From IMG/VR virus record IMGVR_UViG_3300022841_000065, positions 1-24,171 of that record: a stretch of 24,171 nucleotides of DNA. One strand, written 5' to 3'. The notes under the pieces were generated by a model. That model did no database searches and was not told where the DNA came from. It saw nothing but the letters and a program-made list of their open reading frames with translations. The translations under genes were made by a program, and so were the position numbers. Below, in pieces: positions 4,397-24,171 of this stretch; positions within the stretch are counted from its first letter, which is position 1, and every line of letters begins with the position of its first letter. This stretch comes from a virus.

Positions 4397-6870
4397 TGGC
4401 TATTAACATCTTCAAGATGCAGGACATGCTTAAAAACATGTCTAAAGACCAACTTCTCGCCGAGGCGCAGAACCCCACAGGGTCCGCGCCCGCGTTCATG
4501 GTGCACGCGCGGCTCGCCGAAGTCGGTGAGCAGGAGAAAGAAGCTATGCGCAGCGCAAGCGCGCAGGACACCAGCACTGTAGCGCAAGATGTCGTTCAGG
4601 GTGCGGGTGTTGGCGGTATCGGGGCTATGTCGCAGGCGTTAAACCCTCGCGCTCAAAACTCCGCTGACAACGGCTCGTTCGACCCTCGCACGGTGCAGGA
4701 CAACACGGGCGGTCGACAAGAGCCGATCCGTATGGCCGAGGGCGGCGCGGTCAACGGCCGCAACGCGTTCCAAGGCGTCGATCAACTTGACGTTCCTGTT
4801 ATGGAAACTATCGACGTGCGTATGCCAACTCCAACCATCGGGCTTGACTCGCTTGCGGCCCCGCAACGCCCTGCGGCACCACCGGCGTCGTCGCCACGCG
4901 GTCCTGGCCCAGCACGCGACAGCGGGGTTGCTCGCGGACTTGATGCTGCATTGAACGACCTCGCCACAGCAGGTACAAACCGTGCACCGCGCGGCACTAT
5001 GCTTAACGGTGTCATGTACGAACTGCTTGATAACAACACAGTGCGCGAGTCTCGAAGTGGGCAGACAGCACCGCCAGACATTGCCAACGCCGTACGTGCA
5101 CGCCTTCAACCGCCGGTCCAACTCTCTCCTGCTTTGGGGTCCGGGGTTAACCCGTCGTATGAGGAAGCCAGCGGAGGTCGGTTCCCAGCCGAGGACGCGC
5201 TCGCAGCTGACCGTGATGCTGCAGCTGCAGCGACAGCCGAAGCGAATATCATCCAACGCCCGCAGCAGCGCCCTGGTACAGGCGACATAAGTATGGCGGG
5301 TGCGTTCTCGCGCGGTATCGCTATGCAAGAGCCTTCTCCTGCGCGCAGCCCTGCGGACTTTAACGGCCTGCGTGAGCGTGCTGACTATGTAGGGGATAGC
5401 GCGCGCGATGCGTTAGCCGCAGGTCGCGGCGTAGTGAGTGACGGACGAGATAGCGTAGATGCGATGCGTACCCGCATAGACGGCGCAAAAGACAATATCC
5501 AAGGCGGTATCGCTAGCGTGCGCGGGCAGCTCTCCGATCGGTTCGATGCTATGCGCACGCCAGAACAGGACACCGGTCCCGCACCACGCGGAGCGTCTAT
5601 ACGCCGACAAAACCGCCCAGAGGTAATTGCGGGTCCGGGCCCGGATGCGGGCAACGGACCGCGCGGAGCGTCTATGCGCCGTCAAAACCGGGAATACGAA
5701 CCACCGGTTGCCGGTGCGCCGAAAGACTACGGGTCTATGGACCTCACCCGGCTCGAGGCGGAGCGACGCGCCGCGGGAAGTGGCGGCCTTGGCGAGTTTG
5801 CGCTGAACGCAGCAGAGGGTTTTACAGGCGCATTTCGTGGTTTCGGTGCGCGTGTACAAGACAGTATCGGGGATACGGTATCGTCGCTTGGCGCCCCTGG
5901 GGTAGGTGCTTTTTTTAACAGAAATGCGGACGACCTCAACGCTGTAACCGACGAATACTCCCAAAACAGTGCCGGTCGGGACGCCGATCGACAGCGCGAA
6001 GTGGCCCAGCTAAACGCGGCGATCGCTGCGAACGGCGGCGCCCCGAGTTTACCTGATAATGCTAGTGTCGAACCGCTGGCTGACGGTACACTCCCCGGGG
6101 ATTTGCTTCCGCCTGCGCCTGCGCCTACGTCTACGTCTACGTCTACGTCTACGCCTGCAGCCACACAGCCAGGCCCGAGTCGCACAGCAGTGCAGTCGGG
6201 CGGTAACGGCGGTGGCGGCATAGCGGGTATTGCTGCAAAAGCGGCGAACAGCTCGTCCAAGGAGATGTCCTCATACGACACGTTGCTCGCTGACGCGTTG
6301 ACCGAGAACAAAGCCGACCAGAAACAAGCCAAGTGGCTTATGCTCGCCGAGATCGGTGCCGGTATGCTCGGGTCAACAAAGCCTGGTTTTGCAGGCACCG
6401 GAGATGCAGTGAGCGCGGGCCTTGGATCGTACAACGCTGCTAAAGACGCGCTCAAAGCCGAGGCTATGGGTATTGCAAGTATGGGTGAAGACCGACGCCG
6501 CTACGAGCAGAACCGTGAGGATCAGTTCACTATGGCAGCGATGCAGGCCGCTGCGGCTCGCAGTCGTGGCGCTGCGTCAGCGCGTCGTATCCCTATCGGG
6601 GCGCTGACGCCGCTAACAAACGCACTGGAGGAGGCACGTATGGTCGCCTTGAATGTTCCGCCGCCGCCAAAACGCGGTCGTGTGGGCACTATGCTAGGAC
6701 TGGAGGCTCTGGACGATCCGTTTTACACCGATCGCCAGCGTGCAGATGACAACATCGCTATCCTTGAGTCCCAGATAAACCAAGTGTATAACAGCCAAGG
6801 TATCGCTACGCCCACTGCGGCTACGGGCCAAACCGATACCCGCCAAATTAACGCGTCCGATCAACAATAA
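4396..6870 (+). CDS. 824-aa Ala/Arg-rich probable internal virion protein
   Basis: The protein starts with amphipathic MAINIFKMQDMLKNMSKDQL and HARLAEVGEQEKEAM helices, a start seen in large phage internal proteins. It then runs through long disordered Pro/Ala/Arg/Gly stretches with IRMAEGGAVNGR at about residues 112-123. Two near-identical segments of the PRGAS(I/M)RRQNR type lie around residues 396-433. A hexanucleotide repeat encodes alternating Thr-Ser near residues 577-586. The C-terminal part is more ordered, with a Gly-rich hydrophobic stretch (LMLAEIGAGMLGSTKPGFAG) followed by a helical coil (SYNAAKDALKAEAMGIAS, RRRYEQNREDQF). No enzyme motif is recognisable. Position between the YMSPYQQ protein and the giant protein fits an ejection or core component. 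Repeat-driven length variation is likely in this gene. Confidence 0.6.
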   Translation: MAINIFKMQDMLKNMSKDQLLAEAQNPTGSAPAFMVHARLAEVGEQEKEAMRSASAQDTSTVAQDVVQGAGVGGIGAMSQALNPRAQNSADNGSFDPRTVQDNTGGRQEPIRMAEGGAVNGRNAFQGVDQLDVPVMETIDVRMPTPTIGLDSLAAPQRPAAPPASSPRGPGPARDSGVARGLDAALNDLATAGTNRAPRGTMLNGVMYELLDNNTVRESRSGQTAPPDIANAVRARLQPPVQLSPALGSGVNPSYEEASGGRFPAEDALAADRDAAAAATAEANIIQRPQQRPGTGDISMAGAFSRGIAMQEPSPARSPADFNGLRERADYVGDSARDALAAGRGVVSDGRDSVDAMRTRIDGAKDNIQGGIASVRGQLSDRFDAMRTPEQDTGPAPRGASIRRQNRPEVIAGPGPDAGNGPRGASMRRQNREYEPPVAGAPKDYGSMDLTRLEAERRAAGSGGLGEFALNAAEGFTGAFRGFGARVQDSIGDTVSSLGAPGVGAFFNRNADDLNAVTDEYSQNSAGRDADRQREVAQLNAAIAANGGAPSLPDNASVEPLADGTLPGDLLPPAPAPTSTSTSTSTPAATQPGPSRTAVQSGGNGGGGIAGIAAKAANSSSKEMSSYDTLLADALTENKADQKQAKWLMLAEIGAGMLGSTKPGFAGTGDAVSAGLGSYNAAKDALKAEAMGIASMGEDRRRYEQNREDQFTMAAMQAAAARSRGAASARRIPIGALTPLTNALEEARMVALNVPPPPKRGRVGTMLGLEALDDPFYTDRQRADDNIAILESQINQVYNSQGIATPTAATGQTDTRQINASDQQ
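5587..5689 (+). repeat. Pair of 28-bp imperfect direct repeats
   Basis: Copies at about 5587-5614 and 5662-5689 share CGCGGAGCGTCTAT and then CAAAACCG, differing at a few bases. They encode PRGAS(I/M)RRQNR twice, 75 bp apart, in a basic disordered part of the 824-aa protein. Confidence 0.75.
6127..6150 (+). repeat. Four perfect ACGTCT hexamers in frame
   Basis: ACGTCT is repeated four times without change, followed by ACGCCT and preceded by two GCGCCT-like units. It encodes alternating Thr-Ser in a disordered linker of the 824-aa protein. Six-base units keep the frame, so copy number could vary without breaking the gene. Confidence 0.8.
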
Positions 6871-6888
6871 AACGTACTGGAATTACCT

Positions 6889-9800
6889 ATGGGCAATCTC
6901 TCTATTACGAGTAAAAGCACCGGCCAGACGTACGACGTGCTCATATCGGGCGACACACCTACACCCACAGAGACGGCGCGCGCCACGGCTATGATCCAGC
7001 AACGCGACGCTGTGATTGCGGCAGACTACGAAGCCGTGAACGGCCGCCCAATGCCGGTAGCGGACGGCACTGCACTGGGGCGCGGTATTGATCGTGGGAA
7101 GACAGCAGCGTTCAACTCTCTTGGTGTTGCGGCCGAGTCACTCGGGCAGGCCACAGGGATCGCAGGGCTCGCAGGGTTCGGTGCTGATATGCAGGGCGAT
7201 GCGCGGGCAGAGCAGATACGTGAAAACGTAAACATGCCTGCACCTACGTCGTTTTCAGACGCAGAAGGCGTTGGCGGTTTCTTGACGGCCCTCGGAGAAA
7301 CTGCAGGTCAGACCCTTCCTGAAATGGGCGCGACAATCGGCGCAACAGTCGGGGTTGGTCTTACAGCGGGGCCCGTTGCGGGGCTTGCCGCTGGGTGGGC
7401 CACAGCCGTACCTCTATTCACAGGGCGAAACGTAGAACGGCAACGCGCGGAAGTTGCCGCTGGCCGCCTCCCCGAAGTAGACCTATGGAAAGCCTTTATG
7501 ACAGCTGGCGGACAGGCTGCATTAAACTCCATTGGCGACAAACTGCTGATCGGGCCGCTGGCGAAGTCAGGCAAGAACATATTTTCGCGTGTCGGTATCG
7601 GTGCGACGCAAGGTGCAGCCTCCGAAATACCGACGGAGGTAGGACAGCAAGTTCTTGAGCGTCTTCAAGCCGGTATGCCCCTCGACAACGACGAAGCAAT
7701 CGCGGAGTACAAAGAAGCGGCAATCGGTGCAGGTTTCCTCGGTGCAGGTTTCGGTGGTGCCGGTGCGCCCATTCGCGGAGCAATCAACGACAAGATTGCG
7801 CGGGACGTCGCAGATGCACCCACAGCGGACTCAACCGCGGACCCTATGGCAGACGCTGCCGGCGACGCCATCACCACAACACCAGGCGAGCGGGCACCCA
7901 TCACTGCCGAGATTATGGCCGAGGTCACGGGCGACATGCCCGACGTTGACATTGAGCCTACCGTTGACATTGAGCCTACCGTTGCAGCGCCTACCGCCAC
8001 ACTCGACACGCCCACTGCAGTGGTCAATACACCTCTCGCGGACGCTGCTGTCGACAGCAACGCATTGGCCGACAGTCTCGGCGTTCGCAAAGGCGCAAAC
8101 GTGCGCAAAAAGATCGCCGCCATGACGCCGGGCGATCCTGCTATTTTAGATGCGCTTGAGGCGTATTCAGTGAACCCGCGCGTAGTGAAGGCAACACCGA
8201 AAGCAGCCACCGCCGTCAAGCAGTACGTGGATGCACAGCGCGCAGCGCCAACTGCTGACCTTGCCGCACCTGATGCGGCTGTAACCCCTCTTGAGGAGAC
8301 CGGAGATGTCGGATCGCCTACCCCCGCACCTGCTGGAAACAGCCCTGATGCTAGTCAGCCGGATGCCGCTAACATCGACATCGCCGCGCCCGTCGCAAGT
8401 GCCCCCGTCACTCCTGCACGTAACGACGCCGCAGTGGGAGACCCTGCACGAGACGTACCACCTGCTGACATGGCAGCGAGAGCACTCGACACTTCACTAA
8501 CACCGGAGCCCACGGCTATCCCTGATGCGGCGCCAGACGCAGCGACACCTGCGGTAAGCCAAGCGGGCGCTGCGGTGACTGTATCGCCCGCGAGGCCCGT
8601 TGCTGCACCAAAGTCAGTAGCCTCAACGCCGGAACTGGTGTCCGCTGTCGTCACGCCGGAACAGCGAAACGCTGCGCCAGGACTCGCTACAGGCGCAGCC
8701 CGACAATCAATCCCTGCTGGCGTTGCTGGTGCCCCCTCCGTGGTGCGTCCGCCCGAAACCACGCCCGCCCGACGCACTGGGTACACAGTGCAGTCGCAGG
8801 TCGAGTACGACACAGCGCGGCAAGAGGTACGCACCCGCTTCGACGAAACAGCGTCTCCGCAGCTAAAATCAGAAGAACGCCTGTACGCAGGTACGTACGG
8901 TGACGTGCCTGACGTTATGGTGGCAGGGGACTATCTTAGCATTACCGCACTGCTGCGCTCTACGGTATCGACACGCACCTCGATGGAGAAGGCGGCGTTT
9001 ACGTTCTTCTCTAAAAACTCTGATCCGGTGAAAGCCCTTGCCGGTATCGGGTACGCGCTAGACCCGCGTGAGCCGGCTATCCGCCGTGCAAGTGTGGATG
9101 AACGCGTCGTGCCTGAATACTATCGCGGAACCGGTCGCACTGCAGGGGGGCTCGCCGCGAAGTGGGTCGATGCAAATCTAAGCCCAGACGCTACGGATTT
9201 CGTGCTGACCACGGCCGAGGAGATGTCAACGGAAGCGGCTATTGACGTACTCGACGCGTACGCGCAAAGCTCCGAAGCTGCGCGGATACAAGCCGAGAAG
9301 GCATCGCTACGCACGTTGTTGACGCAAGAAGCGATCACCAACAAAGATTTCGATGCACGCATCAGTGCCCTCGATGCGCAGGCGAAAGCGTTAAAGGCAT
9401 TGCCTGTAGACTCCATGGCATCCATGCGTCGCGGTATAAATTCCCGTACGCACCCCACAGCCCTAAGTGCGTTGCGTCAAGGCGACCTTGTGGGCGCGCT
9501 AAATGCTATCGCCGCCACAACCACAGACCCCGTGATCCAGCGCCTCGCTACCGCGCTCGCACCATTCATGGGTGACGTGTCGGTATCAGTCGTGCCTGCA
9601 CGCGACGCGCCGACAAACCCCGACGGGTCCGTTAACCCCCTGTGGATGAAATTCAACGACGGCACCGGAGAAGAAGCCAACGCAGTGTATTACACTGACG
9701 GGTCGATATTCTTCGCTGACCTGCCCGACGGCCTATCTGTGTCGACGATCATGCACGAAGTATTCCACGCCGCTACGGCTACGGAACTGCGTCGCCCGAA

Positions 9801-12800
9801 CAGCATGTTCGCCAAGCAAATCACGTCTCTCCGCGAAGCGGTTAAAAAGCGCTTCGATGACGAGATGGCGGCCGGAGACCCCGCGGCGCGTTCTGACTAC
9901 GATTACTTCACACTCAACAATGACGAGTTTGTGGCCAACGGCATGTCCAGCAAGTCATTTCAGGCCATGTTGGATCGGCTGACCGTGGGCGAGGGCACTG
10001 GCGGCGTATCGCTGTGGACCAAGTTCACCACCGCCATGCGCAACTTTGCTGGTCGTCTACTGGGTCGCACGTTGCGTCCTGTGCGGCGCGACGCACCGTC
10101 GGCGTACGACGTGCTGGACGCCCTGACTATGGAGTTGATTAAAACCCCTGGTGCAATCGTCACTGCGGACCCGGTATTCAGTGCAGCCCTGAACCCGGAC
10201 ACTGCAATGGCGTCGCTAAACAGCCTGTCCAAGCGCGTTGTGGATACCACAAAGGACACCGTCGATAACGTGTTCGAGGGCTGGTCTGCACTGGGCACGA
10301 GTGAGACGATGAAACGGTTTATCGCGAACGCTGCAATTCCACAGCGGAATATGGTTGACTACGCGAAGCGTCACTTCATGAGCACTGACCCCGATACGGG
10401 TGTGGTCACTGACTTGGCCATGGCCACGTACGATGTCACGTCCAAGCACAACGCCACGATTAAAAGCATCAACGATGTGGCCCGGGAGACAATCAACGCT
10501 GTAGCTGGATACCTGCGTAAACAGCCAAACGACGTGAACGCGTTTAATGACTGGGCGTTTCAAGGCAGTGAGTATGGCATTGACGTGCGTAATCCACGCG
10601 ATCACTACGAGTTCCATACGTTGCAGTATTGGGATATGGGCCCGGACGGACGTCCTACAAAGATGAACGTGCAGGTGTTCAAAGGCGCTGACGCGACTAA
10701 AAAACGCACCGCTGCAATGAAGAAGCTAAACTCCGATCTGGCTGCCGACATCGCAGCGGGCCGCCCCGCAACTCGTGGCAACGCCGCGATGAAAAACACA
10801 CCTGAAAAGGATGACGGCACGCTCGACAAGTTCGACGAGTTGAAGGCTATTCAGCAGCAGCTGGATGCAAACAGCAACGGCGAGGCGTCATTAGCCTATG
10901 GCCGTATGCTCGGTCTATACAAGAACCTGCACCGTGAGGCGGCACGCGTGTTTCGCGCCAAGATCGTCGCCATGCTCCCTGGTAATGAAGCCCTGCAGCG
11001 GGTGGTCTATGCCGACATCTTCGACAAGATGTTTACGACCAACCTGCTTGAGGCGTACATGCCGCTGACACGGTCTGGGAAGTATTGGTTGACGTATTCA
11101 ATCCGAAACCAGGACTCCAAAGAGATCGAGACGTTTAAGCAGACGTTCCTCACAGACACAGAGCGTAAGCAAGAACTTGCAGCCCTTGAAGCGTTACCTG
11201 CGGAGCTAGACTTCTCGGATGCCAGCGAGTTCACGTCGTTCAAAGAATACCACCAGCGTGGAGCGCCCACAGCGTTTGTCGCAAAGACCGTGGAGAAGAT
11301 CGACAAGTCGCTCGCCGATCGCACTAAGAAAGAGTACGACACTGTCCTGGCCGCGGAAATTGCACGTCTACAGCCCGACGTGGATGCGGGTAACATCGGT
11401 GCCGATTACGCGGCTGGTGTTGCCGCAGGCGTGGCGGAAAGTGCGTCGCTCGATTACAACGCCAAGTCCGCCGAGGAAGCCAAGACGCTAAAAGAAGACC
11501 TGATTAACATCGCCTTGGAGATGATGCCCGAGCGGTCGTTCATGCAGAGCTATAAGGCGCGTCAAGGAACAAAGGGTTACGAGGGTGGCCGCACGGCGCT
11601 TGGTAACAAGCTGGGTGCACGAGACGCGGTCAACATGATGATGCGCAAGAGTTCTACTATGGCACGGCAGCTTGCAGATGCAGAGTTCAGTGCCAAGGCC
11701 ACGGAGTTAAAGGGCCGGATGACGCGTCATGCTAATGAGCGGTCGCCAAAGGTATCCGCAGCGGAAGACTCGAACATGCGCGTGTCGCTAGACGTCCTGA
11801 CGCGGTCGATGGATAACATCGCTGTTCAGCGATCCGCCGGAGTGAAGGTGCTTAATACGTTCACGTACATGATGACACTGGGCTTCAACGCGTCGTCCGC
11901 CGCTATGAACATGATGGGGCTGCCTACAATCGTTCTAGGCACCCTGGGCGGCAAATACGGATACGCCGAGTCCGCAAAAGCGATTACGGGGGCTATGAAG
12001 ACCTTGGGTAACTCCGGCCGCACCCGTGCAGCTACTCGTGTCGACGAAAACGGAAACCTTGAGGTGTTTGACCGGGACGTGGGGCGCTTCGATGTAACGA
12101 TGGAGAACATCAAGTTCGCCGACTACGATGCGTCCGCGGCGTATAACTCAAGCACCAACAAAGCGGCGCGTCTTGGTGCGCTGGCGAAGGTGTTCGGGGA
12201 AAGAGGCCTGTTTGCTGACTCCGTCCACCACGATAACCTCGACGTGCAGGGTATGGCTACAGGCGGTGCGTGGCAGAAGTTCGTGGAGTTCGGTGCGTGG
12301 GGTATGCACAAGACAGAGATTATCGTACGCGAGTCCACGGCTATCGCTGCGTTCGAGCTTGAGCTGGACCGTATCGCCAAAGCCAACGGCAGCGACGTGT
12401 TAACCGATGCTGATCTGGAGGCGGCTGCCCTCGAAGCAGTGTACGTCACAGAGCTGACCAACGGCACAATCGCAGCGGCCTCACAGCCTAACTTCGCGCA
12501 GCACGGCATCATGCCGATGATGTATATGTTTAAGCGTTACCCGCTGGCGATCTTTAACCTGATGGGAACGCTTGCCCACCAGTCGTTCCCTGGCCACGCC
12601 AAGTTACTCGCCGAGTTCGGCAGCGTAGACGCACCCGAGTACATAGACGGTATGCAAGCGCGTAAAGTAGCGCGGCTGCAGCTTGCCGGTGTCGTCGGTA
12701 ACGTAGGGTTGTGGGCCGGTGTTGCGGGTATGCCGCTGTACGGTGCGTTGACCAGCGCGCTTGACATGATCTTCAAAGACGAAGACGAACTCGACTCGGA

Positions 12801-13527
12801 CACACTGTTCCGCATCGCTATCGGTGAGGGCGCATCGCGCGGCCTCGCAAACTACTTGTTCGGGGTGGAGGCATCCAGCCGTATCGGCCTCGCCAATATG
12901 TTCTACCGTGATCCGTTCCGGTCTGCAGATAACCCACCACTGTGGAACTTCCTTGAGGGTGCGGGGGGACCGGTCGTCGGCCTTACCAACTCCATCCTTA
13001 CGCGCACTGGAGACCTGATATCCACCGGACAAACGGGACGCGCAATCGAGTCCATCTCGCCTGCCTCGCTTCGCAACGTGATGAAAGCCATGCGGTTTAC
13101 GTCGGCCGGCGGCGCGGAGTCATCCCGCGGTGATATGATCGCCGATATCAGCGCGGGTCAGGTGCTTGGTCAGATGCTTGGCTTCTCGCCAGCGTCTTAT
13201 ATTCGTCAGACGCAGCTTAACGGCGCGCTCAAGACGATGGACATGGCGATATCGTCACAGCGTACAGCGGCCCTGCGTCGCCTTAACGTCGCCCAGCGCA
13301 CGGGGAACGCGGCGGGTGTGTCTGATGCACGCGACATTATCGCCAACTTCAACGAGCGGAACCCAGACTACCGGATCGACGCTGATACCGAAGCGCGGTC
13401 CTCTAAAGCGTTCACGTCCACCACTGCACGTATGCAGCACGGTATACAGTACAACACGCGCACGGAGGCGCGTATGGCGCAGTGGCTCGCCTACTTTGAA
13501 GGCAACGGCCCCAAGCCCTCCATCTAA
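6889..13527 (+). CDS. 2,212-aa internal virion / ejection megaprotein with HExxH metallopeptidase domain
   Basis: The gene begins 18 bases after the previous stop, with a weak TGGA ribosome site. Residues about 147-178 form a Gly/Ala-rich hydrophobic stretch (GATIGATVGVGLTAGPVAG) that could act in or on membrane. Residues about 300-640 are Ala/Pro/Thr/Asp-rich and probably disordered, with a tandem VDIEPT unit. HEVFH at 956-960, with downstream NNDEFVAN (Glu at 1013), matches a zinc metallopeptidase with a Glu third ligand; a similar HE..H...EFVAE pattern occurs in other phage virion megaproteins. The C-terminal third, including MMYMFKRYPLAIFN near 1877 and an Arg/Gly/Pro-rich end, resembles the large polyvalent-protein-associated region of podovirus internal proteins. 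It is probably packaged and ejected with DNA, analogous to T7 gp16 or N4 internal proteins; the peptidase activity is inferred. Confidence 0.75.
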   Translation: MGNLSITSKSTGQTYDVLISGDTPTPTETARATAMIQQRDAVIAADYEAVNGRPMPVADGTALGRGIDRGKTAAFNSLGVAAESLGQATGIAGLAGFGADMQGDARAEQIRENVNMPAPTSFSDAEGVGGFLTALGETAGQTLPEMGATIGATVGVGLTAGPVAGLAAGWATAVPLFTGRNVERQRAEVAAGRLPEVDLWKAFMTAGGQAALNSIGDKLLIGPLAKSGKNIFSRVGIGATQGAASEIPTEVGQQVLERLQAGMPLDNDEAIAEYKEAAIGAGFLGAGFGGAGAPIRGAINDKIARDVADAPTADSTADPMADAAGDAITTTPGERAPITAEIMAEVTGDMPDVDIEPTVDIEPTVAAPTATLDTPTAVVNTPLADAAVDSNALADSLGVRKGANVRKKIAAMTPGDPAILDALEAYSVNPRVVKATPKAATAVKQYVDAQRAAPTADLAAPDAAVTPLEETGDVGSPTPAPAGNSPDASQPDAANIDIAAPVASAPVTPARNDAAVGDPARDVPPADMAARALDTSLTPEPTAIPDAAPDAATPAVSQAGAAVTVSPARPVAAPKSVASTPELVSAVVTPEQRNAAPGLATGAARQSIPAGVAGAPSVVRPPETTPARRTGYTVQSQVEYDTARQEVRTRFDETASPQLKSEERLYAGTYGDVPDVMVAGDYLSITALLRSTVSTRTSMEKAAFTFFSKNSDPVKALAGIGYALDPREPAIRRASVDERVVPEYYRGTGRTAGGLAAKWVDANLSPDATDFVLTTAEEMSTEAAIDVLDAYAQSSEAARIQAEKASLRTLLTQEAITNKDFDARISALDAQAKALKALPVDSMASMRRGINSRTHPTALSALRQGDLVGALNAIAATTTDPVIQRLATALAPFMGDVSVSVVPARDAPTNPDGSVNPLWMKFNDGTGEEANAVYYTDGSIFFADLPDGLSVSTIMHEVFHAATATELRRPNSMFAKQITSLREAVKKRFDDEMAAGDPAARSDYDYFTLNNDEFVANGMSSKSFQAMLDRLTVGEGTGGVSLWTKFTTAMRNFAGRLLGRTLRPVRRDAPSAYDVLDALTMELIKTPGAIVTADPVFSAALNPDTAMASLNSLSKRVVDTTKDTVDNVFEGWSALGTSETMKRFIANAAIPQRNMVDYAKRHFMSTDPDTGVVTDLAMATYDVTSKHNATIKSINDVARETINAVAGYLRKQPNDVNAFNDWAFQGSEYGIDVRNPRDHYEFHTLQYWDMGPDGRPTKMNVQVFKGADATKKRTAAMKKLNSDLAADIAAGRPATRGNAAMKNTPEKDDGTLDKFDELKAIQQQLDANSNGEASLAYGRMLGLYKNLHREAARVFRAKIVAMLPGNEALQRVVYADIFDKMFTTNLLEAYMPLTRSGKYWLTYSIRNQDSKEIETFKQTFLTDTERKQELAALEALPAELDFSDASEFTSFKEYHQRGAPTAFVAKTVEKIDKSLADRTKKEYDTVLAAEIARLQPDVDAGNIGADYAAGVAAGVAESASLDYNAKSAEEAKTLKEDLINIALEMMPERSFMQSYKARQGTKGYEGGRTALGNKLGARDAVNMMMRKSSTMARQLADAEFSAKATELKGRMTRHANERSPKVSAAEDSNMRVSLDVLTRSMDNIAVQRSAGVKVLNTFTYMMTLGFNASSAAMNMMGLPTIVLGTLGGKYGYAESAKAITGAMKTLGNSGRTRAATRVDENGNLEVFDRDVGRFDVTMENIKFADYDASAAYNSSTNKAARLGALAKVFGERGLFADSVHHDNLDVQGMATGGAWQKFVEFGAWGMHKTEIIVRESTAIAAFELELDRIAKANGSDVLTDADLEAAALEAVYVTELTNGTIAAASQPNFAQHGIMPMMYMFKRYPLAIFNLMGTLAHQSFPGHAKLLAEFGSVDAPEYIDGMQARKVARLQLAGVVGNVGLWAGVAGMPLYGALTSALDMIFKDEDELDSDTLFRIAIGEGASRGLANYLFGVEASSRIGLANMFYRDPFRSADNPPLWNFLEGAGGPVVGLTNSILTRTGDLISTGQTGRAIESISPASLRNVMKAMRFTSAGGAESSRGDMIADISAGQVLGQMLGFSPASYIRQTQLNGALKTMDMAISSQRTAALRRLNVAQRTGNAAGVSDARDIIANFNERNPDYRIDADTEARSSKAFTSTTARMQHGIQYNTRTEARMAQWLAYFEGNGPKPSI
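7945..7980 (+). repeat. 18-bp perfect tandem duplication
   Basis: GTTGACATTGAGCCTACC occurs twice head to tail (7945-7962 and 7963-7980). It encodes VDIEPTVDIEPT in the disordered linker of the megaprotein. Confidence 0.85.
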
Positions 13528-21962: not shown

Positions 21963-22910
21963 TCACTCTCCATATCGTTTCCCTACGTCGGACTCGCACG
22001 CAACGGGCAGGCCTGCGGCCCAGTCCGGTGTCACACTCATGCACGCTTCGATGTATGTTCTGGCGTCATCTACTTCCTCGTCCCGCACGCAACACACGAC
22101 CGAGTCATGAACTGTTAGGGCAGGGCGATAACGCTTGTTAATTAGTATCATCTGATCCCCGATGACGCAACGTGCAATCGCCTGACACACGTTCTCGACT
22201 ACGGCGCCCCCATATACATACTTCCAACCGTTGCGCACCTTGTAGCTGTAGTCGTACCCCATATCGCTTTTCTCGGCCCGGAGGTCGCGGTATCGTAGGT
22301 ATAGCCCAGACGGCAAAAGGATACCTTCTTCGTCCGGGTCCACTTCCAGAACACCCCGTTTACCGAAGTTGTACGCGTCGCCCCGCTGCAGGTATTTGAG
22401 CATATTCCCTGCATCCTTCCACAGCTGGCTTATGTGGTGGTTGCTGCTGCGGTAAACGTCGATGATGCGCTTCGCCTCGTGCTCGGTCACTTCGACACCG
22501 GCTTGCATCTTCAAGAATAGCTGTAACTTCAAGTGACCGACGCCGTATCCTGCACCTAGAATAACGGTCTTTCCCACTGCGCGTTCCTCGTACGTTACGT
22601 CAGCAACGTCCTTGCCGTAGATTAGCGCGGCCATGATCTTATACACGTCCTCTTTGTTTAGGAACGCAGCCACAACATTATCCTGGCCGGCCAGCCACGC
22701 CAGCACGCGCGCTTCGATCTGCGACGAGTCGGCGTCGATAAGGGTGTAGCCCGTAGGCGCCACAATGGACTTCTTTATCTGTTTGGCGTTCGCGCCGCGC
22801 GATGGTAGATTTTGGAGGTTAATTTTGTCTGAGTTGTGCACTAACTTTCCGTTGGCGGCGAACCGACTACGGGGGCCGCAATTCTGTATGTCATAAACTG
22901 GAACGCGCAT
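21963..22910 (-). CDS. Intein C-half fused to C-terminal part of family A DNA polymerase
   Basis: The 315-aa ORF starts at ATG 22910, five codons after an in-frame TAG, with AGGGAGA upstream. Residues 1-26 are an intein C-half: VYDIQNCGPRSRF (block F) and GKLVHN (block G, penultimate His25, terminal Asn26). Ser27 is the +1 extein residue. The polymerase then continues with SDKINLQNLP. Palm motifs follow: motif A DADSSQIEAR with catalytic Asp61, motif B R110 to K114 and Y122-G123, motif C VHDSVV with H268-D269. This is the fingers and palm end of a T7-like polymerase, about 289 aa after splicing. It should be inactive unless trans-spliced to the N-part. The HNH gene overlaps its first 20 bases; the 52-aa gene follows one base after the stop. 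Confidence 0.93.
   Translation of the reverse strand: MRVPVYDIQNCGPRSRFAANGKLVHNSDKINLQNLPSRGANAKQIKKSIVAPTGYTLIDADSSQIEARVLAWLAGQDNVVAAFLNKEDVYKIMAALIYGKDVADVTYEERAVGKTVILGAGYGVGHLKLQLFLKMQAGVEVTEHEAKRIIDVYRSSNHHISQLWKDAGNMLKYLQRGDAYNFGKRGVLEVDPDEEGILLPSGLYLRYRDLRAEKSDMGYDYSYKVRNGWKYVYGGAVVENVCQAIARCVIGDQMILINKRYRPALTVHDSVVCCVRDEEVDDARTYIEACMSVTPDWAAGLPVACESDVGKRYGE
22833..22910 (-). other. Split intein C-half (IntC)
   Basis: These 26 codons run from the start Met to Asn26. They hold blocks F and G (VYDI..., VHN) and precede Ser27. The half is short compared with the 35-40 residues usual for natural IntC pieces. Confidence 0.88.
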
Positions 22911-23655
22911 ATTTCTGTCTCCCTATGATGTCGGCATCCGTATGCCCTTGCTTTATCCACTGCCGTAGCGTCTCGTACGTTAAGTCGGGGCGAATTTCTT
23001 GCAGTGCGCGTATCCGCTCCCCTACAACACCGCGCTTGTACGCGCGCTTGTTCTGCGCCTGCTCAGACCTCGTGGCCCACCGTAAGTTACCTGCTTCGTA
23101 GTGTCGGTTATTATCTACCCTGTCGATGCTGTGACCCGGCGACGGCCGCATCCCGAGGTTATATAGTACCCACTCCGCAGCGGCGTGTGGCGACGGGAAG
23201 TCAAACTGTATACCTCGCCCTCCATAGCTCGGATAAGCGACGTCGTTGGCGTTGGTACACCGCTGCTTGGCGCTGGACATTACGTTCATAACCGCCCGCG
23301 CACCGGGGCCGTATGCCCGCACCAACGGATGGGGCGTAGCTTTAGCCTTGACTGATGCAGCGGTTGACGCGGCTGTTGCCTGCGCGAGCCGCTGCGTCGC
23401 TGGGATGCGGGACATCTTAGCGCGGGTGGCGCACGCTTTGCATTGCCGTGTGCCACCCGCTAGTACGTCACTTACGCGTACGTGGGTCTCTGTGCCGCAC
23501 CTGCACCGCACGCGTATCTTAGATTTTGTCGCCACGCCGCCGCTGCACACCCGCGTCCATAGCGTCATTGTCAGGGCAGACGCTAGGCGTGATCCGGTGA
23601 GCTCCCTGCATCGCGTCTCGTAGGCTGATCTCTCCGGCGTCGGTAAATACGACAT
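22891..23655 (-). CDS. Freestanding HNH homing-type endonuclease between the intein halves
   Basis: The 254-aa ORF lies in a frame different from both polymerase parts. A zinc ribbon uses CRC at 51-53 and CKAC at 72-75. Then come a Lys/Ala/Thr linker, a MSSAKQRCTNANDVAYPSYG segment with GGRGIQF, and an HNH core HSIDRVDNNRHYEAGNLRWA (His175, Asn190) followed by SEQAQNKRAY. That core pattern is typical of phage intron- and intein-associated homing nucleases. A C-terminal LTYETLRQWIKQGHTDADI looks like an HTH/NUMOD-style DNA-reading unit. The start is uncertain: ATG 23655 makes a 137-bp overlap with the intein N-half gene; ATG 23568 would give 225 aa and still keep every domain. The nuclease probably cuts the polymerase gene of intein-free relatives at the insertion site. 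Confidence 0.85.
   Translation of the reverse strand: MSYLPTPERSAYETRCRELTGSRLASALTMTLWTRVCSGGVATKSKIRVRCRCGTETHVRVSDVLAGGTRQCKACATRAKMSRIPATQRLAQATAASTAASVKAKATPHPLVRAYGPGARAVMNVMSSAKQRCTNANDVAYPSYGGRGIQFDFPSPHAAAEWVLYNLGMRPSPGHSIDRVDNNRHYEAGNLRWATRSEQAQNKRAYKRGVVGERIRALQEIRPDLTYETLRQWIKQGHTDADIIGRQKYARSSL
22918..22924 (-). promoter_or_regulatory. Shine-Dalgarno for the intein C-half ORF
   Basis: AGGGAGA lies inside the last codons of the HNH gene, seven bases before ATG 22910. With the in-frame TAG just upstream, it marks independent initiation of the polymerase C-part. Confidence 0.75.
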
Positions 23656-24169
23656 GGTCTTCGGTCCCTGTAACTCCGTCCCACTCTATAACTTCAGAGT
23701 AGCCGCTGAACACGACACCCTCGTGCCGTACGAACTCTATTCCATCCCAGACAAGATCGTCAGGAAGAACGTCCGTTATAGCCTTGTCTATTACGGCGTC
23801 CGAAATGTCAAGTACCGTTATCGACGTATCGGCCGTTAGACATCCCCCCCAGCGACCTGTGTGGGCCGCATAGTAACGGATCGGCACCGGCAGTGATCCA
23901 CGCGATGCGATCCCGATAAACCGCTGCGTACGTGTTTCCTCCAGCGTGGATTTAACCCCCATACGCGCGGACACGAGTGCCTGCACTGCGGTGTCGTCGT
24001 GATCCAGCAACGCCTTGAACTCCTCGTCACCCTTCGCAAAAGCGTATGTCTCTTTACCGGTAGATGGGCTGATCTTTAACGGGCACACGACACCTAACGC
24101 TTCGAGCATGGTGGCGAACTTCGGGTTGCTCATTAGCTGTTTCTTGGCTGCTACGTTTATAGCGGAGTC
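23519..24169 (-). CDS. N-terminal part of family A DNA polymerase fused to intein N-half (5' end outside window)
   Basis: The frame is open to the window edge, so the exonuclease and earlier parts of the polymerase lie outside; visible codons begin DSAINVAAKKQL. Counting from an internal Met at 24133, the polymerase part has TGKETYAFAKGDEEFKALL, KSTLEETRTQRF and YYAAHTGRWGG, the thumb-to-palm region of T7-like polymerases. Cys98 then opens an intein N-half of 107 residues: block A CLTADTSITV, a middle WDGIEFVRHEGVVFSG, and block B with T157-E-D-H160. The protein stops after RRRGDKI. Splicing would join RWGG to SDKINLQNLP, restoring the conserved HTGRW.GSDKINLQNLP block. The tail overlaps the HNH ORF by up to 137 bp. 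Confidence 0.93.
   Translation of the reverse strand, partial: DSAINVAAKKQLMSNPKFATMLEALGVVCPLKISPSTGKETYAFAKGDEEFKALLDHDDTAVQALVSARMGVKSTLEETRTQRFIGIASRGSLPVPIRYYAAHTGRWGGCLTADTSITVLDISDAVIDKAITDVLPDDLVWDGIEFVRHEGVVFSGYSEVIEWDGVTGTEDHVVFTDAGEISLRDAMQGAHRITPSVCPDNDAMDAGVQRRRGDKI
23522..23842 (-). other. Split intein N-half (IntN)
   Basis: Codon TGT at 23840-23842 is Cys1 of the intein. Block A follows at once, and the TxxH motif of block B (TEDH) lies about 60 residues on. After GEISLRDAM a tail of about 30 residues runs to the stop and overlaps the HNH frame. Confidence 0.88.
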
Positions 24170-24171
24170 TA

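Follow-up and report, generated by a model that had tools for sequence, protein, structure and literature searches.

Organization of the polymerase locus

The window analyzed here, an IMG/VR virus record of 24,171 bases (IMGVR_UViG_3300022841_000065), carries on its minus strand a family A DNA polymerase gene broken in two by the halves of an intein, with a gene for an HNH-type nuclease lying between them. The locus stands at the end of a replication block in which exonuclease, helicase and primase-like genes were assigned with PHROG. It consists of three consecutive open reading frames (ORFs) on the minus strand, each in a different reading frame. The first, the N-ORF (24169-23519, minus strand), is open at the contig end and reads ...RYYAAHTGRWGG/CLTADTSITVLD...GTEDHVVFTDAGEISLRDAMQGAHRI... 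up to its stop codon, the slash here and below marking a junction between extein and intein or the position of a break. The HNH ORF follows, and the last, the C-ORF (22910-21963, minus strand), reads MRVPVYDIQNCGPRSRFAANGKLVHN/SDKINLQNLP.... The features of the locus are listed below, with IntN and IntC standing for the N-terminal and C-terminal halves of the intein.

23843-24169, minus strand: N-extein, the part of the family A DNA polymerase before the break, with AAHTGRWGG as its last residues; its 5′ end is cut by the contig end, and a full-length counterpart is present in the related contig L003
23519-23842, minus strand: IntN, 107 amino acids (aa) and a stop, with Cys1, block A (CLTADTSITVLD), block B (GTEDHVVFTD), an N4-like region (ISLRDAMQGAHRI) and a helical tail, as read from the alignment and the structural model
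23639-23668, minus strand: intein block B (GTEDHVVFTD), which also holds the HNH start codon (CATGTC)
23665-23669, minus strand: AGGGA, a possible ribosome-binding site of the HNH gene within IntN, found by sequence inspection
22891-23655, minus strand: HNH-type nuclease ORF, 254 aa, with an N-terminal helix over IntN, a zinc-ribbon-like region (CxC...CxxC), the core HSIDRVDNNRHYEAGNLRWAT and a C-terminal helical region (PHROG, structural model)
23519-23655, minus strand: dual-coding overlap of IntN and the HNH gene, 137 nt, +1 frame (codon-position test)
22919-22924, minus strand: AGGGAG, a Shine-Dalgarno-like site of the IntC ORF, within the end of the HNH gene, found by sequence inspection
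22833-22910, minus strand: IntC, 26 aa, MRVPVYDIQNCGPRSRFAANGKLVHN (block F VYDI, block G VHN)
21963-22832, minus strand: C-extein, the polymerase domain from Ser+1 (SDKINLQNLP...) to the stop, with motif A (DADSSQIEAR), the O-helix (RAVGKTVILGAGYG) and motif C (VHDS), matched by PF00476 and PHROG 17

The polymerase is broken at AAHTGRWGG/SDKINLQNLP. Joining the exteins gives AAHTGRWGGSDKINLQNLP, and uninterrupted counterparts of this block occur in relatives that include L005, L006, L008 and L011. The C-half matches the family A polymerase model PF00476 (E 4.7e-34), the C-extein matches the DNA polymerase family PHROG 17 (E 6.7e-59), and motifs A, B (O-helix) and C of family A polymerases are all found in it. 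The protein encoded between the halves matches the HNH endonuclease family PHROG 374 (E 5e-29) as well as PHROG 3377 (E 6e-24), and its gene overlaps the C-ORF by 20 nt in addition to its longer overlap with IntN. A preliminary description drawn from the letters of the window had read the N-ORF as polymerase homology running into an intein N-half (Cys1, block A, TEDH), the C-ORF as an intein C-half followed by SDKINLQNLP of the same polymerase, and the gene between them as an HNH nuclease with a zinc ribbon. Each of these elements was found where it had been placed, and the conserved block that the joined exteins were expected to rebuild is indeed the one present in the uninterrupted relatives.

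Contig L003 (IMG/VR 3300037320_000013), which comes from a different sample, is 99.26% identical to the window over 2300 nt with zero gaps, and all 11 differences within the C-ORF are synonymous. The break in the window is therefore not a sequencing error. L003 also supplies the complete 5′ part of the N-ORF, 444 aa, in which a DxE-type 3′-5′ exonuclease motif can be read by eye. Further relatives were collected by searching with the IntN alignment, which gave 48 contigs, and with the polymerase C-half. Both intein halves are present in 44 of the 48 IntN-bearing contigs, representing 30 distinct inteins, and in all 44 loci the halves are split at the same place and encoded by separate ORFs. 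Since the same anatomy recurs across 44 contigs and 30 distinct inteins, the arrangement in the window cannot be attributed to chance. Among the distinct inteins IntN is 105-111 aa long and IntC is exactly 26 aa in every case; a purine-rich, Shine-Dalgarno-like site precedes the IntC start codon in 30 of 30 distinct loci. The IntN frame of the split loci holds between 1 and 30 stops before IntC, 10 of them in L003. A contiguous ORF through the intein-bearing site, which the preliminary description had named as the observation that would speak against a split gene, was found in none of the 44 loci. Its proposal to look for relatives with an uninterrupted gene at the same site proved productive: the C-half search returned about 50 distinct related polymerases with AAHTGRWGG-SDKINLQNLP or close variants of it, besides several relatives broken at the position seen in the window. 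A DNA-level search of cultured phages gave an 85-nt match only, and the exact type is therefore not known from a cultured phage in such a search.

These data bear on two explanations in which the gene would be continuous. The occupation of three frames by three ORFs might be taken to favour sequencing or assembly frameshifts that broke one continuous intein-HNH polymerase gene. Such errors are a vanishingly improbable cause, and the independent contigs already refute them: the 99.3% identical contig from another sample has zero indels, none of the 44 loci is continuous, the IntN frame meeting 1-30 stops before it reaches IntC, and an overlap of well over 100 nt between the HNH gene and IntN could not be produced by a frameshift error. 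Recoding, that is programmed frameshifting or readthrough that joins the parts into a single polypeptide splicing in cis, would agree with the existence in several phages of cis relatives in which the intein is continuous and the HNH gene occupies another of its frames. We consider it extremely unlikely, given the stops in the IntN frame before IntC (10 in the near-twin of the window and up to 30 in relatives) and the conserved start codon with a Shine-Dalgarno-like site that belongs to the IntC ORF itself.

A second, divergent clade (L118-L130) has an IntN of 108 aa and the C-extein SKGSAINMQNLKR. Its HNH ORF begins even further upstream over IntN. The two halves share a frame in this clade; read-through from IntN to IntC was considered and rejected, as 9-22 mixed stops lie between them.

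Some further observations concern the polymerase and the window. In motif C the sequence VHDS stands where HDE is usual. The Glu is likewise replaced by Ser (VHDS) or Ala (VHDA) in uninterrupted relatives, and the change is therefore a trait of the clade. In the O-helix (KTVILG) a hand alignment places Leu at the position equivalent to Phe762 of E. coli Pol I. Elsewhere in the window a 2212-aa ORF (6889-13527) matches the DarB-like antirestriction family PHROG 10089 in its C-terminal part (E 7.5e-25).

Intein halves and the overlapping nuclease gene

In an alignment of 20 sequences Cys1, the Thr and His of block B (T60 and H63), the VYD of block F and the terminal His-Asn (H113 and N114) are invariant. 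At +1, 29 of the 30 distinct inteins have Ser and the remaining one (L113) has Cys. All sequence features of a class 1 intein are present: Cys1, T..H in block B, Asp in block F, the terminal His-Asn and Ser or Cys at +1. When an AlphaFold model of IntN (pLDDT, the predicted local distance difference test score, 73) was compared with the PDB, the top six matches were all inteins, Npu DnaE and gp41-1 among them; the best was the IntN of Npu DnaE (4qfq_A, probability 1.00, E 0.008), with gp41-1 next. By itself, IntN is thus modelled as an N-half of the Hint type. Class 3 inteins lack a nucleophile at position 1 and have Trp in block B and Cys in block F (PMC7664689). This class was rejected, since Cys1 is invariant, block B (GTEDHVVFTD) has no Trp and the Asp of block F is kept (VYDI). 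A conserved Cys in block F is not a class 3 mark, because it sits four residues past the Asp position and Cys1 is present.

Several points weigh against a functional split intein accompanied by a nuclease. The confidence of the IntN model is modest, with a predicted template modelling score (pTM) of 0.42 beside the pLDDT of 73, and the model covers IntN alone. Of the profile searches proposed in the preliminary description, those directed at the polymerase succeeded (PF00476), whereas the Pfam and NCBIfam intein models matched neither half, and a profile of the joined halves found among solved structures only the Spl DnaX mini-intein, weakly (E 0.044). IntC falls about 10 residues short of the typical natural IntC (that of CLm has 39 aa; PMC13014065); one element of the usual Hint fold may therefore be absent or come from IntN. 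As for the nuclease, the Pfam HNH_3 match is marginal and comparison of the protein model with the PDB matched no solved nuclease.

The start codon of the HNH gene arises from the His-Val codons of block B (CAT GTC), downstream of AGGGA in the window, and its position is the same throughout the main clade. At the other end of the gene, the start of IntC and its putative ribosome-binding site fall in the last HNH codons. The HNH protein is modelled with a pLDDT of 88, and its N-terminal part, encoded by the overlap, forms a confident helix (residues 7-28). A codon-position test was based on mean pairwise differences across 22 loci. In the region coding for IntN only, the differences at IntN codon positions 1, 2 and 3 are 0.227, 0.199 and 0.557, a pattern of strong purifying constraint. 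The corresponding values are 0.272, 0.187 and 0.283 in the IntN/HNH overlap, and 0.66, 0.395 and 0.315 in the HNH-only region, where IntN positions 1, 2 and 3 are HNH positions 3, 1 and 2. Variation at the third position falls from 0.557 to 0.283 in the overlap; IntN is thus constrained at its silent positions too, as would be the case if both proteins were important. The overlap is constrained in both reading frames.

One relative, L110, has its HNH gene deleted down to a 53-aa ORF (5188-5349), of which only the parts overlapping IntN and the start of IntC are left. Its split intein is intact, with 8 nt separating the IntN stop from the IntC start. The preliminary description, right in its anatomy, had included neither the start overlap in block B nor this nuclease-less relative, nor the cis relatives with nested HNH genes that are treated below.

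HNH genes are common in phage introns, such as the DNA polymerase intron of Pf-WMP3 (PMC3428280), and the record of Sodalis phage SO-1 annotates a related locus as a type I intron. The HNH gene might accordingly reside in a self-splicing RNA intron interrupting an ordinary cis intein, which would be made contiguous from the spliced RNA. We judge this very unlikely. Neither the window nor any of 12 related loci gave an Rfam match to a group I or group II intron above gathering thresholds. IntN closes with a stop codon of its own, placed similarly in all loci, and all 30 distinct inteins have an IntC ORF with a conserved start codon of its own and a purine-rich site before it. In L110, IntC begins only 8 nt after the IntN stop.

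A further explanation is that an active enzyme forms by non-covalent association of the two polymerase fragments, the intein halves being vestigial or capable of cleavage only. The preliminary description's view that the phage needs protein trans-splicing in order to replicate is weakened to the extent that such association may occur. There is a precedent in the nuclease-split NrdA, whose two pieces function without being joined (PMC10448857). For the present family this explanation is improbable: none of the 30 distinct inteins has lost its catalytic residues, the IntN-only codons are under the strong purifying constraint described above, the intein is better conserved than the exteins, and L110 retains an intact split intein after loss of the nuclease.

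Distribution of the intein and related insertions

A tree was built from 83 polymerase C-halves, 30 of them split and 53 empty. On this tree the split state requires 13 changes, of which at least 8 fall on well-supported branches, against a mean of about 25 for shuffled labels. Median identity is 73% for the inteins, 57% for the HNH proteins, 56% for the N-side exteins and 42% for the C-side exteins, the last value being pulled down by second inteins in L085, L093 and L106. Strong constraint on the intein could also contribute to its higher identity. The patchy spread, together with inteins that are more alike than their exteins, fits homing with repeated gain and loss. The suggestion that the element is locked into an essential gene agrees poorly with this distribution, in which at least 8 gains or losses fall on supported branches.

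Related PolA inteins are found in cultured phages at other sites. There the intein is one open frame and an HNH gene is wholly nested in another frame of it. Phages of this kind are SO-1 (gp38/gp39), VT223 (Jerseyvirus), Pubbukkers, APSE-1 (P45/P46), EBPR siphovirus 2, MR14, Gardnerella AB1 and Vibrio 97.13; the loci are L160 (3036-3794), L161, L162, L164, L165, L166, L168 and L169. In the six loci measured, the nested gene spans 222-269 codons, over which stops number 0 in the intein frame and 12-27 in the third frame.

The second inteins of L085 (6284-7126), L093 (6284-7126) and L106 (2933-3775) are of the cis type and 281 aa long, and in each case the polymerase that they interrupt in its C-half is the fractured one. 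They are inserted either in the O-helix (ILG/C...HN/CGYG) or near motif C (YGGK/C...HN/CVEN) and carry a nested, out-of-frame HNH-like ORF, which is truncated by a stop in L085.

In six rumen or gut contigs of Firmicutes and Synergistales (L170-L175) PolA is split at a nearby site, GRF/SGR, a few residues away. As judged by eye, a GIY-YIG-like ORF lies between the halves in L171, L173 and L175; L174 has no nuclease there, and L172 and L174 additionally hold a cis intein with a nested HNH gene.

Moraxella phage Mcat20 (L167, 2659-3591) has a chimeric ORF made of a ThyX-like start (by eye), the PolA-like snippet RGNMPIPLRYASAHTGRYGG, a cis mini-intein and a DUF3310-like tail. The mini-intein belongs to the present intein family. 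The chimera looks as though an intein had moved and taken along part of the gene that formerly hosted it.

Proposed mechanism and relation to known systems

The main reading, to which we give a probability of about 0.88, is that a family A DNA polymerase gene has been fractured here by a split intein accompanied by a freestanding HNH-type nuclease, the polymerase being made by trans-splicing and the element spreading by homing as set out below. The comparison establishes the anatomy of the locus, its conservation, the constraint acting on both frames, the empty sites and the patchy distribution; trans-splicing, nuclease activity and homing are inferred from it. One mRNA region would give three proteins: the polymerase N-half with IntN at its end, the freestanding nuclease, and the polymerase C-half preceded by IntC. 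The two intein halves, of 107 and 26 aa, would come together as a Hint domain, and the class 1 pathway, using Cys1, the block B Thr and His, the block F Asp, the terminal His-Asn and Ser+1, would excise the intein. Ligation of Gly-Gly to Ser-Asp would then restore the conserved AAHTGRWGG-SDKINLQNLP block, with a predicted junction peptide ...HTGRWGGSDKINLQNLP. Translation of the nuclease would begin from its own ribosome-binding site inside block B. The most probable targets of the nuclease are uninterrupted alleles of the polymerase gene, which it would cut in or close to the break site, and repair of a cut allele would copy the whole IntN-HNH-IntC cassette. Nuclease and splicing halves are tied at the DNA level, because the first ~45 nuclease codons lie over IntN and the start of IntC lies in the last ones.

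With some hesitation, we lean towards the view that the split inteins of this family arise by gene overlap. An HNH gene would become established in another frame of a polymerase intein, and the outcome could be of two kinds. In the cis outcome (SO-1, APSE-1, Jerseyvirus), selection would keep the intein frame open through the nuclease gene. In the trans outcome, represented by the present family, stops would accumulate and the C-terminal part would gain its own start. The start-codon overlap would tie the nuclease to a catalytic intein block, and loss of the nuclease, as may have happened in L110 and L174, would leave a permanently split intein. The order of events, with the out-of-frame HNH gene first and the intein then staying open or splitting, is deduced from the comparison of these loci.

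Fractured genes were reportedly described by Dassa et al. (2009) in environmental phage-like DNA, where a split intein with a freestanding nuclease is said to interrupt genes for eight enzyme types, the nuclease being Vsr-like in half of the loci. The present locus resembles them in that a conserved DNA-metabolism gene is broken by a split intein and a freestanding nuclease gene lies between the halves. It appears to differ from them in having a family A polymerase, an HNH-type and not a Vsr-like nuclease, a nuclease start in block B and a 26-aa IntC. A Vsr-like nuclease does not belong to the defining features of fractured genes. The DnaE split inteins of cyanobacteria share with it the class 1 trans-splicing proposed here and a split between blocks B and F, and provide the closest fold match to IntN; their halves are located far apart in the chromosome, and no nuclease accompanies them.

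The preliminary description had placed the locus among fractured genes and had presented the combination of a replicative polymerase with an HNH nuclease as its distinguishing mark. The former holds, as a split intein with a nuclease between its halves is present, but the combination is not new: phage MIJ3 has a PolB split intein with the HNH gene orf154 (PMC6892783). MIJ3, a single reported case, is a jumbo phage with a family B polymerase and another intein sequence (block F VYDIGMKNPDNPYFF). Trans-splicing has been demonstrated experimentally for the Aes123 PolB1/CLm natural split intein (PMC13014065; PDB 9HTH). It too is a natural split intein of a phage polymerase, but CLm is cysteine-less, belongs to a family B polymerase and has an IntN of 120 aa and an IntC of 39 aa. 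The cis PolA inteins of SO-1, APSE-1, VT223 and others have 37-51% IntN identity to the present family, the same kind of polymerase and an out-of-frame HNH gene overlapping the intein. They differ in occupying other sites, for example RQIGKA/CELGLGYGGG, and splice in cis, because the intein frame is open throughout. In ShiLan an out-of-frame HNH insertion in a methylase, reported without a splicing domain (PMC11855218), likewise hides an HNH gene in another frame of an element inserted in a phage gene.

The fractured-gene arrangement, a PolB split intein with HNH (MIJ3), a trans-splicing PolB1 split intein and an out-of-frame HNH insertion are therefore already known. As far as could be checked, the new elements are a broad fractured PolA family, a conserved dual-coding start in block B, a uniform 26-aa IntC, nuclease-less derivatives, and the occurrence of cis and trans outcomes.

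Split inteins are major tools of protein engineering. The family offers about 30 ready-made ones, which escape current intein models and whose IntC, at 26 aa, could be made by chemical synthesis. Our data suggest that protein trans-splicing is needed for the production of the polymerase in many environmental phages. Since nested-nuclease cis inteins, fractured genes and nuclease-less split inteins are all found in one enzyme family, the route from cis to trans in the origin of natural split inteins is directly testable here. If true, gene overlap would be a general route to natural split inteins, and one that is visible in the sequence.

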